IMG/VR virus record: IMGVR_UViG_3300047470_000125
Coordinates: 1 to 38,798 of that record
Source: a virus
DNA length: 38,798 nt
Reading direction: 5' to 3' (one strand)
Part shown: positions 904 to 4,263 of the stretch, one piece after another
How the letters are laid out: every line of letters begins with the position of its first letter
Position numbering within the stretch: the stretch's first letter is position 1
The notes under the pieces: generated by a model
Seen by the model: the letters and a program-made list of their open reading frames with translations, nothing else
Database searches by the model: none
What the model was told of the DNA's origin: nothing
Position numbers and translations under genes: made by a program

Positions 904-1076
904 GTAGCCAATGCAAGCCGGGTGGATGCTCGGCGATCGGATGCGAAGGTGGGTTCTACTGCTTCAATGCGGACGGCACGCCGAAGCCCGATCCGACGCC
1001 AGAGCAGCAAGAACAGCTACGCGCTGCGCTTGCGCACTACTGCAAGCCTGAGAAGGCAGTGAAGGAGCCGAAATGA
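900..1076 (+). CDS. Small cysteine-containing phage protein
   Basis: This encodes 58 residues from the ATG that overlaps the preceding TGA (ATGA); a longer upstream frame exists but lies within the previous gene. The N-terminal third contains four cysteines (QCKPGGCSAIGCEGGFYC), which could hold a metal or form a compact knuckle. The rest is proline-rich and then helical, ending in AVKEPK, similar to the VKERK end of the preceding protein. It ends in another ATGA overlap. The tight coupling supports translation. Function is unknown. Confidence 0.6.
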   Translation: MSSQCKPGGCSAIGCEGGFYCFNADGTPKPDPTPEQQEQLRAALAHYCKPEKAVKEPK

Positions 1077-1243
1077 ACGACGAACTCCTACGTGCAGTAG
1101 AGAACCTGATCCAGGCAGCAGATGCCTACCTGGTGGGATACGAAGAACCGGCTGTCGTGCCTTTCAACACTCGCCGGGGAAGTTTTGGCGCGTTGCGCGA
1201 GGCATATGCGCGGGCGGTAGAGCAGAGAGAAAAGGAGAAATGA
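1073..1243 (+). CDS. Small hypothetical phage protein upstream of xis
   Basis: This encodes 56 residues, starting at the ATGA overlap with the previous gene and ending just inside the xis start region. The sequence is mostly helical: MNDELLRAVENLIQAADAYL, then a Pro/Arg-containing middle, then an ALREAYARAVEQ helix. The opening resembles small phage proteins with a heptad-like N-terminus, but I recognise no family. Support comes from the unbroken chain of overlapping starts and stops and from normal composition. AAAGGAG at its 3' end serves as the ribosome binding site of the next gene. Confidence 0.6.
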   Translation: MNDELLRAVENLIQAADAYLVGYEEPAVVPFNTRRGSFGALREAYARAVEQREKEK

Positions 1244-1455
1244 TGGCGAAGCTAGTCACTCTCGACCAGTGGGCCGAAGCCTTGTTCGGCAGCTCGAAGC
1301 CGCACCGCAACACGCTGCTCAACTGGCGGAAAAACGGGCGAATCGTCCCGCAGCCGATAAAATGCGGCACGAAATATTTCGTCGAGCCACACGCCGTCTA
1401 TTACGATGACGCTGGCGAGATGCAACGGAGACTGGGGAATGGCCGCACGGCGTAG
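1243..1455 (+). CDS. xis: Excisionase (lambda Xis-like)
   Basis: This encodes 70 residues resembling the lambda Xis family: an N-terminal winged-helix segment (VTLDQWAEALFG, TLLNWRKNGRI) followed by a P-PIKCGTKYF wing-like stretch and an acidic/basic tail. In this family the protein bends attachment-site DNA and directs integrase towards excision. Two in-frame ATGs sit at 1240 and 1243; GGAG at 1234-1237 is better spaced for the second. The 3' end overlaps the integrase start, the usual xis-int arrangement. Family resemblance plus position make the call firm, although no search was run. Confidence 0.85.
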   Translation: MAKLVTLDQWAEALFGSSKPHRNTLLNWRKNGRIVPQPIKCGTKYFVEPHAVYYDDAGEMQRRLGNGRTA

Positions 1456-2554
1456 GGAAGCGAAGCGCCGGCACTGGCCGGCCAATCTGTATCAGAACAG
1501 CGCAGGCTATTTTTATTGGCGCAATCCCGACACGAAGAAGGATTACGGCATCGGTCGAGATCAGGCGAAGGCATTCGGGGAAGCGCGGGCCGCCAATGCC
1601 GAGTTGGAAAGCAGCCGAGGTTATCGATCGGTCGTCCAGCGAATGACCGCTCCCGACGAAAAAACGCTGCTGGAATGGTCGACCGAATACCAGAAGATTT
1701 ACGAGGAAACTCGTAATCCGACGCCGAGCACCATGCAGACGGTACGGGCTGGCCTTCGTGTTGTGTTGAAAGCACCGTTCGCTGATAAGCATCTTCGGAA
1801 GATACAAACGCGCGAGATAGCCGAGTTTCTGGACGGGATCGATAAGCCGAATATGGCGAAACTCGCCCGGAAGACGCTTTCCGACATGATGCGCGTGGCT
1901 GAAACGAAAGGGATTATCGATTCTGGAAAGAATCCAGTATCAGTCACCAGAACGCCAGAAATTACGGTCGAGCGATCCAGACTCATGCTTCCCGAGTTCA
2001 AATTGATCTACGCGAAGGCCTTGGAAATGGAGCCGTGGGTCGCGCGCAGTTTCGAATTAGCCCTGTTGACGGGCCAGCGTCGGGAAGACGTTGCCAATAT
2101 GCTTTTCTCTGACGCGAAAGACGGCTTTCTATTCGTCGCTCAGCAGAAGACGAAAATGAAGCTTCGGATTCCGATGGCGGTGCGCATGGATGCGATCGGG
2201 CTGTCTCTGGAAGACGTAATCAAGCGCTGCCGGGATAAGGTCGTGTCGAAATCGATGATTCACCATGCGCGGGTCGTCGGGAATCAGAAGCCGGGTTATC
2301 CGGTCGACCCTGATTCGCTCACGCGTGGCTTTCGTCTGGCGAGAACAGCGGCCGACGTGAAGTGGGAAGAAGGAAAGACGCCGGCATCGTTTCATGAGCT
2401 GCGCAGCCTGGCGGCCCGGCTTTACGCTGAGCAATACAGCCCCGAGTTCGCTCAGGCGATCCTTGGACATAAGTCGGCCAGCATGACCGAAATGTACCGG
2501 GATGTGCGAGGAGCGGAGTGGGTCGAAGTGAAACTAGGAGCTAACGGTGGGTAG
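1439..2554 (+). CDS. int: Site-specific tyrosine recombinase, lambda-type integrase
   Basis: This encodes 371 residues, close to lambda Int in length and domain order. Residues ~10-57 form the arm-type DNA-binding domain (NSAGYFYWRNP, GIGRDQAKA), ~75-165 the core-binding domain, and ~175-371 the catalytic domain. The catalytic set is complete: R214 in LTGQRRED, K237 in QQKTKMK, H319 and R322 in FHELRS, H344 in LGHKS, and nucleophile Y353 in EMYRD. The ATG at 1439 is chosen over 1406 because CGGAG precedes it and the protein then begins like lambda Int. It overlaps xis by 17 bases and the GIY-YIG gene by 8. It should integrate and, with Xis, excise the phage. Confidence 0.95.
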   Translation: MAARRREAKRRHWPANLYQNSAGYFYWRNPDTKKDYGIGRDQAKAFGEARAANAELESSRGYRSVVQRMTAPDEKTLLEWSTEYQKIYEETRNPTPSTMQTVRAGLRVVLKAPFADKHLRKIQTREIAEFLDGIDKPNMAKLARKTLSDMMRVAETKGIIDSGKNPVSVTRTPEITVERSRLMLPEFKLIYAKALEMEPWVARSFELALLTGQRREDVANMLFSDAKDGFLFVAQQKTKMKLRIPMAVRMDAIGLSLEDVIKRCRDKVVSKSMIHHARVVGNQKPGYPVDPDSLTRGFRLARTAADVKWEEGKTPASFHELRSLAARLYAEQYSPEFAQAILGHKSASMTEMYRDVRGAEWVEVKLGANGG

Positions 2555-3125
2555 ACCAAGAAAAAGCGGACTTCCTCCGCGCCTCAATAAGAACGGTGCT
2601 GGATATTTCTACTTCAACTACCCCGCCAAAATGGGCGGATCGATCAAGACGGTCGGTCTTGGGAGAGATCAAGAAAAAGCGATTGCTATCGCAAATGAAT
2701 TGAATGCGACGTTAGGCGAGATCGGAAAAGAGAAACTGGAAAAGCGCACACAAGCAGAATTGCTCAGAGCCAAGACGGGGTTTTCTCTAGATCCCTCCGG
2801 CCTGCTTGACCTTTCATTCTTACGATCAAAATCAGAGATTTACGATCGCGTGGCCGGAGTCTACTTCCTTCTTTCAGACGGGGAAGTTGTGTATGTCGGG
2901 CAGTCTGTGGACTGCAATGCCAGACTCAGTGCGCACTTTCGGGAAGGCACGAAAGCATTTGATTCGAGCTACATACTGAGGTCCGACCCTCGCGATCTCA
3001 TTGAATTGGAGGCACTGTACATTCAGAAATTCAGGCCCAAGTTCAACCTTGATCTTCCCGATCCAAAACGCAAGACAGCATGGGGGCTGACACAGCATAT
3101 CTCAGCGATAGAGGTGAAATTCTAA
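2547..3125 (+). CDS. Integrase arm-binding domain fused to a GIY-YIG nuclease domain
   Basis: This encodes 192 residues from GTG with GGAG ten bases upstream, overlapping the int stop by 8 bases. Residues ~8-54 (NKNGAGYFYFNYP, VGLGRDQEKA) match the integrase's own arm-type DNA-binding domain, but no recombinase core follows. Residues ~101-170 carry a GIY-YIG fold: GVYFL at 104, VVYVGQS at 115-120, R126 and H130 in the following helix, a glutamate in LIELEALYIQKF, and FNLD near 167. GIY-YIG enzymes nick or cut DNA. The inferred role is to bring a nuclease to arm-type sites, probably at attP or att sites of related phages. Both domains are clear; the biological role is a guess. Confidence 0.85.
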   Translation: MGRPRKSGLPPRLNKNGAGYFYFNYPAKMGGSIKTVGLGRDQEKAIAIANELNATLGEIGKEKLEKRTQAELLRAKTGFSLDPSGLLDLSFLRSKSEIYDRVAGVYFLLSDGEVVYVGQSVDCNARLSAHFREGTKAFDSSYILRSDPRDLIELEALYIQKFRPKFNLDLPDPKRKTAWGLTQHISAIEVKF

Positions 3126-3369
3126 ACGAATAGTGGGCGATGATAGACGGTTCTAGATTCCATAAGGGTTATAGACCGCTTTCCATTGCCTCCCGCGTAA
3201 AACCCCGCAAACCTCGTTTTTCCTAATTCATTCAACGCGTTACGTGATTTTCTCGGCATCCCGGAGATGCACGCGAATGCACAGTCGCGCACGTTTCAAA
3301 TCAAGTACTTACAGCGCCGTAATAGACGGCACTTTGCAAAACATGAGATAGAATCTCGCGGAGAGAAAA
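3126..3369. other. Intergenic region, candidate attP
   Basis: This 244-base gap follows int and the GIY-YIG gene and precedes a small rightward cassette, the usual place for attP in lambda-type phages. It contains ATAGACGG at 3143-3150 and 3322-3329, with the variant ATAGACCG at 3171-3178, all in direct orientation; these could be arm-type integrase sites. It also holds the inverted repeats GCCGT-N5-ACGGC (3316-3330) and GAGAT-AGA-ATCTC (3345-3357), the latter spanning a TAGAAT -10-like element before the downstream gene. The core crossover sequence cannot be identified without the host attB. No gene is seen here. Confidence 0.45.
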
Positions 3370-3385
3370 ATGACTGGACAAAATT

Positions 3386-3586
3386 TTGATAACAAACATA
3401 CGAAACTGGCTGAAAGCGTGGTTCGCTCAGCCGGAAAAATTCACCGGTTCTGCACTGGTGGCCTATCGGATTGGGTACGACGCGGATTGGAGCGACACGA
3501 ATCCGTATTGGCCGGATTCAAGACTGTATCGAGCCTGGCAGGCTGGACGGAAGGAACGCGAGAGCTACGAAAACTATGTCTGGTGA
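3386..3586 (+). CDS. Small RMF-like protein (start uncertain)
   Basis: This encodes about 66 residues. The C-terminal half (AYRIGYDADW, NPYWPDSRLYRAWQAG) resembles the ribosome modulation factor pattern of GY, PY and a W-x-x-G helix, which suggests an RNA- or ribosome-binding small protein. The start is unclear. TTG 3386 lacks a good ribosome binding site; CTG 3374 is ten bases after GGAG; and the well-placed ATG 3370 is in another frame, which one base of slippage in the AAAATTTT run at 3380-3387 would bring into this frame. Its stop overlaps the next gene's GTG (GTGA). Its position beside the probable attP fits a lysogenic conversion gene. Confidence 0.55.
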   Translation: MITNIRNWLKAWFAQPEKFTGSALVAYRIGYDADWSDTNPYWPDSRLYRAWQAGRKERESYENYVW

Positions 3587-4263
3587 TTGCATGCTGCGCG
3601 ATGGCTGCGTGCGGAGGGGGCGGGGGCGGATCAGAGCCGCAGCCGACCGTTAAGCAGCCGGTCGTCGTCAAGATCGCCGCGGAAGGCGATAGCACAATGT
3701 ATGGGTGGACGCAGACCGGGCCGAACACTTATATTCGATCGCCGTCGAATCAACCCGCAGTGATCGCGTCGGATCTCGGAATCACGGTCGAAAATAATGG
3801 AGTAGGCGGTACTACGGTGACGATGAGTCTCGACGGCCCGACCGTGTACCCTGCTCCGTTTTCAGAGCGCATCAAGACGATGGACGCTCAGATCGTCATC
3901 GCTAACTACGCAATCAACGATGCGCGACTGAGCACGCCAGAGCAATACCGGGACGGTCTGAATAAGTGGATTACCATCGTCCGAGCCGCAGGGAAGATTC
4001 CGGTTCTCGAAGAACCTAACCCGGTATGGTACGGGTTGATCCCCGAAGATATGCTTGCTGGATTGGACCAATACGTCGGGATCATGCGCGAAGTCGGGAA
4101 AGCGCAAGGCGTCTTGGTGATCGCGCAATACGACTATGTGAAATCGCTCGACTGGAAAACGATGCTCCCTGACACAATCCACCCTAACGATTCGCTTTAC
4201 AAGATCATGGGTGATCGGGCGGCCGACCAGATTAAGGGGTTGGTGGCATCGCTCCAGCAATAA
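3583..4263 (+). CDS. SGNH/GDSL-family hydrolase, predicted lipoprotein
   Basis: This encodes 226 residues from the GTG that overlaps the previous stop. The frame stays open back to ATG 3370 (297 residues), where a GGAG is well placed, so the start is uncertain; an in-frame R-E-L-R-K stretch just upstream would give a better signal-peptide n-region. A cysteine lipobox region (ACCAMAAC) and a glycine run follow. SGNH blocks: GDS with S37, NNGVGG with G75, AIND with N112, and DTIH with D197 and H200. These enzymes are esterases or acetyl-hydrolases, often acting on cell-wall or surface polysaccharide. It is probably an envelope-anchored conversion or exclusion factor. It ends tail-to-tail with Rz, overlapping it by 32 bases. 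Confidence 0.8.
   Translation: MIACCAMAACGGGGGGSEPQPTVKQPVVVKIAAEGDSTMYGWTQTGPNTYIRSPSNQPAVIASDLGITVENNGVGGTTVTMSLDGPTVYPAPFSERIKTMDAQIVIANYAINDARLSTPEQYRDGLNKWITIVRAAGKIPVLEEPNPVWYGLIPEDMLAGLDQYVGIMREVGKAQGVLVIAQYDYVKSLDWKTMLPDTIHPNDSLYKIMGDRAADQIKGLVASLQQ

Follow-up and report, generated by a model that had tools for sequence, protein, structure and literature searches.

A small phage gene at the junction of a lambda-family integrase gene and the probable attP encodes a lambda-Int-type arm-binding domain joined to a complete GIY-YIG nuclease whose activity is predicted, and we see about an even chance that it acts at the int-attP junction as a homing-type endonuclease of the free-standing kind, guided to arm-type sites by its captured arm domain. 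In such a scheme the N-terminal domain, taken from an integrase, would bind arm-type sites of attP and the GIY-YIG domain would break the DNA near the int end or P' arm of a phage without the gene; repair off the GIY+ phage would then place a copy of the gene, together with short flanking stretches, between int and the arm array, while altered P' sites would protect the carrier. The gene (Table 1) was found in a viral DNA stretch of 38,798 nucleotides (the window), the termini of which form an exact 87-bp repeat; the phage genome is accordingly complete and circular, with an intact attP. For the first 25 kb of the window, no DNA-level relative was found in the phage collection.

Both domains had been claimed in a sequence-only reading of the window, and both stand. 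Since the Pfam scores of the window protein are marginal and sit at the cut-offs (PF09003, the lambda Int arm domain, aa 8-58: 22.2 bits versus 22.0; PF01541, GIY-YIG, aa 104-164: 22.5 bits versus a gathering cut-off of 22.6), we tested the claim on relatives, among which L018 and L020 score 41-44 bits for PF09003 (33-44 bits across L018, L020, L023 and L161) and PF01541 lies above its cut-off in L020, L023, L161 and L111. With a profile built from five arm-GIY members, the arm domain of lambda Int in its solved structures (1kjk/2wcc) is matched at E=3.6e-12; for the nuclease domain of UvrC the value is 4e-4. Structure prediction, which the earlier reading had put forward as the check for an arm-like fold, points the same way: in the AlphaFold2 model of the window protein (pLDDT 84) the N-terminal domain is predicted to resemble most closely, among arm folds, lambda Int 1-64 on P'2 DNA (2wcc, TM 0.68, target-normalised), and the C-terminal domain the GIY-YIG domain of UvrC (TM up to 0.72). 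Across 28 aligned relatives G104, Y106, Y116, G118, R126 and E155 are invariant and H130 and N167 nearly so. The protein lacks a tyrosine recombinase catalytic domain, with PF09003 and PF01541 as its only Pfam matches. PHROGs returned weak endonuclease matches only, plus an integrase match on the arm of L020. Membership in PDC-S14, a candidate anti-phage defence family, was ruled out, as its whole profile is not matched: the PADLOC hit is weak and covers the GIY part alone (aa 103-147, E=3e-5, 49 of 301 profile positions).

Table 1. Features at the int-attP junction of the window (aa, residues of the arm-GIY protein).
Feature	Position	Strand	Basis or remark
xis, lambda-type excisionase PF07825	1240..1455	+	Pfam 3.3e-10
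int, lambda-family tyrosine integrase, arm domain PF09003 and catalytic domain PF00589	1439..2554	+	Pfam
Difference-free tract of 718 bp shared with L003, with the GIY gene at its centre and diverged flanks	2453..3170	+	Pairwise comparison
AGGAG ribosome-binding site of the GIY gene, within the int 3' end	2536..2540	+	Sequence
Arm-GIY nuclease gene	2547..3125	+	192 aa, GTG start, 8-nt overlap with int stop
Integrase-type arm DNA-binding domain (aa 8-58)	2568..2720	+	PF09003; profile vs 1kjk E=3.6e-12; Foldseek 2wcc
GIY-YIG nuclease domain (aa 104-167), Y106, Y116, R126, H130, E155, N167	2856..3047	+	Pfam, alignment, Foldseek
P' arm-type array of attP (predicted sites)	3120..3150	+	Array kept after int in GIY-less relatives
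P' decamer 1 TTCTAAACGA	3120-3129	+	Overlaps GIY stop
P' decamer 2 TAGTGGGCGA	3131-3140	+	Degenerate
P' decamer 3 TGATAGACGG	3141-3150	+	Part of P' array
Probable attP core TTGCCTCCCGCGTAA	3186..3200	+	Imperfect inverted repeat around 7 bp, kept in relatives; inference
IHF-like site AATCAAGTACTTA	3299..3311	+	Consensus match, 1 of 3 in window, same position in relatives
P-arm arm-type site TAATAGACGG	3320..3329	+	Matrix match

The window Int is 38-40% identical to those of lambda, HK97 and 434 across 98% of its length, and its gene is preceded by xis. That the GIY gene is coupled to int, as proposed earlier, agrees with the overlap of the two genes and with the ribosome-binding site inside int (Table 1); a promoter scan of positions 1000-3500 found none, and judging from its position the gene would be translated behind int. 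In int relatives without a GIY gene three decamers (approximately TTCTAGACGA) come directly after the int stop; next is a core containing a short inverted repeat, then an IHF-like site and another arm-type site. This order is that of lambda attP, after which the sites are provisionally named here. In the window the GIY gene fills the gap between int and decamer 1 and places its stop codon within that decamer; the position beside attP given in the sequence-only reading is thus borne out, with the correction that the P' arm-type array starts at 3120, inside the GIY 3' end, and not at 3126. Under an arm-type matrix trained on GIY-less relatives only, the decamer at 3120 ranks first among 77,578 window positions, which is expected for the window phage since it shares attP ancestry with the training phages. 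L003 and L022 likewise have their best arm-type site at the GIY stop, and in L111, L023/L110 and L161 the best one of the locus follows that stop by 10-20 bp. Here L111, L023 and L161 are the informative cases, their GIY proteins having a lambda-type arm and their contigs no lambda-type integrase that we could find; L023 and L161 also have an IHF-like sequence across the GIY stop. Loci with a second N-domain type (type 2, see below) and L111 show the order int, attP, GIY with the att core formed by a tRNA 3' end, so that GIY again adjoins attP.

Such an arrangement would also suit a regulator whose arm domain competes with Int or Xis at arm-type sites and whose GIY fold serves DNA binding or autoregulation. 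In its favour are the arm-type site that overlaps the GIY stop or comes right after it, the coupling of the gene to int, and the precedent of I-TevI, which is both nuclease and repressor. To our minds a regulator is nonetheless very unlikely, for diverse members retain the full set of GIY catalytic residues, which binding alone would not need. Directly past attP the window carries a GDSL-lipase-like lipoprotein (3370-4263, PF13472), and the far side of attP in relatives holds variable cargo (another GDSL-type lipoprotein, a methyltransferase or a glycosyltransferase). Elsewhere, at 1-700, a stretch GAGCGTGCGGACGCC(GGGAAGGAT) is repeated in several small ORFs.

Five relatives (L011-L014, L016) with int genes 78-99% identical to that of the window have no GIY gene, and in most of them the P' array comes directly after the int stop; likewise, L336/L337 are without it and have an int 95% identical to that of GIY+ L020. 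The gene is absent from L011-L016, L336-L338, L340-L342 and L345. With close int relatives lacking the gene, empty sites become visible, and sporadic presence at one locus next to empty-site relatives, a trait by which homing endonucleases are recognised, is what we observe. L011, whose int shares 98% identity with that of the window, has a small, Cys-rich and unrelated ORF (1754-2011, about 82 aa from ATG) between int and the P' array, likewise behind AGGAG in the int 3' end. Hence the slot takes alternative cargo, a point against homing, and one that, phage genomes being mosaic, might speak for a nuclease gene that is itself passive cargo, brought by mosaicism into a tolerated slot and with no att role. 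Passive cargo seems highly improbable to us, even slightly more so than a regulator, when set against the capture of several integrase arm-domain types, their matching to integrases, the purifying selection on the gene (see below) and its placement exactly at arm-type sites in independent lineages.

GIY+ phages may also differ in the P' arm itself. Comparison of L334 (the same as L020/L021) with L336/L337, whose Int proteins are 95% identical, shows that the GIY+ phage has TTTTGCCT in place of TTTTGAAC at two of its three P' sites, and the lowest P' array scores in both families belong to GIY+ phages (23.9 and 21.7 versus 26.5-39.1 in GIY-less ones; in the other family 14.4 and 13.9 versus 23.1-41.4), with two GIY+ arrays per family, one of them from the distant L022. 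Weak arrays would fit self-protection of the carrier; they are too few to lean on.

Consistent with homing are tracts of identity around the gene. Between the window and L003 the GIY gene has 0 differences in 579 positions, int 31 in 1108 and att 26 in 258 (Fisher p=2.8e-6), and an independent pair with another arm type, L187/L188, gives 0/510 for GIY and 80/996 for int with both flanks diverged (p=1.7e-15), so that int divergence beside a difference-free GIY gene amounts to 2.8-8% in the two pairs. GIY-centred tracts of this kind are the pattern expected of gene conversion or homing, and a conversion-like tract around the gene, a further trait of homing endonucleases, would thus be present in two independent pairs. 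Other recent recombination would also leave such tracts, and it counts against homing that they can arise through the usual mosaicism of phages or, with less likelihood, through chimeric assembly of metagenomes. L020 and L021 have the entire int-GIY stretch in common and differ upstream. In L255/L257, from one sample, the GIY side of attP is identical from the tRNA-like core onward and the int side different, which looks like a swap of att halves at the core; this too weighs against homing, as integrase-type recombination would give the same result. Between the GIY genes of L023 and L161, dN is 0.18 and dS 2.3 (saturated), which points to purifying selection though the adjacent integrase is of another family.

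The earlier suggestion to look for the same architecture beside other integrases proved fruitful. About 225 GIY loci came up in scans of viral contigs and fall into 75 clusters, 30 of which have an integrase in the examined flank and 27 a tyrosine integrase within 500 bp. Seven more proteins carry the lambda-type arm (L018, L020, L022, L023, L161, L111, L234), and at least three other integrase N-domains occur in the same GIY family: type 2 (L031, L189, L190, L191, L085, L149, L155, L070) and those of L195 and L098 (Myxococcales genome), each of its neighbouring integrase's type. The type-2 domain has no significant structure match to a solved integrase arm domain, and its tie to integrases rests on direct similarity to the neighbouring ones. 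Other GIY relatives have an HTH-like N-domain (Sinorhizobium phage NV1.1.1 and others) or none that was recognised. In NV1.1.1 (L006:1511-3396) the HTH-GIY protein, annotated as hypothetical, overlaps the integrase stop; with its relatives from L055, L093, L138 and L164 it forms one supported clade. A one-time fusion origin of arm-GIY proteins seems unlikely, given some 9 switches of N-domain type along the nuclease tree (minimum possible 5); support for that tree is weak because the domain is short.

N-domains resemble the neighbouring integrase more than chance predicts: over 13 GIY-integrase pairs the score is 1020 against a shuffled mean of 579 (permutation p=4.6e-4, a value flattered by counting related pairs separately). 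This matching, the tight linkage to tyrosine integrases (27 of 75 clusters) and the precedent of Tsy transposons, where transposition is increased by, but does not depend on, a GIY-YIG nuclease next to a tyrosine recombinase (PMC10293859), would favour an accessory to the phage's own integrase, one that might nick att DNA, for instance, or eliminate the empty or donor product. An accessory is, however, quite unlikely in our opinion: most close relatives with nearly the same integrase miss the gene, and it appears to be kept under purifying selection next to integrases of another family (L023, L161). Nor does every GIY arm fit its own integrase, a notion rejected on account of L018, L020, L023, L161, L070 and L234. 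The L023/L161 arms match the L018/L020-type Int (137/110 versus 27/32 for their own), nesting within its arms on the lambda-arm tree with modest support. Those of L018/L020 match the window-type Int (89/98 versus 53/38 for their own), which argues against homing.

Arms that match an integrase other than their own would rather suit an exclusion weapon, a nuclease that cuts the attP of competing phages, or P'-bearing prophage ends, and so blocks integration or excision, with self-spread secondary. The single tyrosine recombinase in each of the L023 and L161 contigs is of another family, and close GIY-less relatives (L016, L011, L336/L337) would be sensitive. Yet the att fragment after GIY in L023/L161 (IHF-like and arm-type site) could just as well be the remnant of an integrase since replaced, the arms of the window, L195 and L098 fit their own integrase best, and the PDC-S14 matches do not reach beyond the GIY domain. 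We therefore hold an exclusion weapon to be unlikely, if less so than an accessory.

Among the roles offered by the sequence-only reading, a homing element of the int-att junction is accordingly the one we favour, given its sporadic presence in the slot, the empty sites and the GIY-centred tracts, and cutting of rivals' att sites may be a by-product or a selected effect. The gene's position adjoining its presumed target, the probable purifying selection and the predicted match of its arm to 2wcc would all support homing, as would traits in common with the free-standing endonucleases of T4, which are promoterless cassettes with co-conversion tracts and marker exclusion (PMC2988022). Like the T4 Seg family (and I-TevI for the fold), the arm-GIY protein is a small GIY-YIG nuclease with a separate DNA-binding module, sporadically present by its presumed target, read with the upstream gene and found in identity tracts with diverged flanks (PMC2988022). 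Unlike that family, its binding part is N-terminal and an integrase arm domain rather than NUMOD/HTH, its site is the attP of temperate phages, and its cutting and homing are predictions from sequence. From lambda integrase (PF09003; 1kjk, 2wcc, 1z1g), which it resembles in arm profile and predicted fold, it differs by joining the arm to a nuclease without a core-binding or tyrosine recombinase domain.

Tsy likewise has a GIY-YIG nuclease gene next to a tyrosine recombinase, and also a small HTH gene; the second recombinase-like TnsF and the comM insertion are its own, and the accessible text mentions no arm domain (PMC10293859), whereas arm-GIY belongs to a phage with int, xis and attP. No TnsF-like gene was seen among the searched neighbours of the GIY gene, and a Tsy-type accessory-nuclease operon (YRec, HTH, TnsF) was discarded, the neighbours in the window being xis, int, attP and the GDSL lipase. 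The T5orf172 homing endonucleases, a GIY-YIG subfamily, share the modular swap of DNA-binding domains and homing-type biology; they are another nuclease subfamily with other binding domains (e.g. RepA_N) and, as far as the accessible text goes, no integrase arm domain (PMC10448857).

The arm-GIY fusion was not found in 50,697 annotated phages, where the GIY domain alone was matched in proteins labelled hypothetical except for one 'GIY-YIG nuclease superfamily protein'. Genome contigs gave no match to the window protein; what the arm-GIY profile brought up there were GIY relatives, all lacking the lambda arm. Plasmids gave no match, and 399 genomes of the family around Paraburkholderia gave one GIY protein of this kind, the remaining matches probably being integrase arms. 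Integrases are absent from a 2006 survey of the GIY-YIG superfamily, and Tsy was the only combination of the two found in the literature searched, outside which most subscription journals lie.

A broader proposal, which we regard as doubtful but worth stating, is that GIY-YIG enzymes have taken up integrase arm domains again and again, giving a family of nucleases directed at att that cut the attP, and possibly prophage ends, of competitors; temperate phages would then be fighting over integration sites with re-aimed integrase parts. Matched GIY+ and GIY- attP regions exist, so a clean experimental comparison is possible. Should arm-guided targeting of att sites hold true, the integrase's targeting domain would have been put to use more than once for directing a nuclease to the places where phages integrate. 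It would account for the spread of a selfish nuclease gene at one fixed position in temperate phages, indicate a route by which integration modules are exchanged or excluded, and provide natural small nucleases with a swappable DNA-recognition domain of known type.
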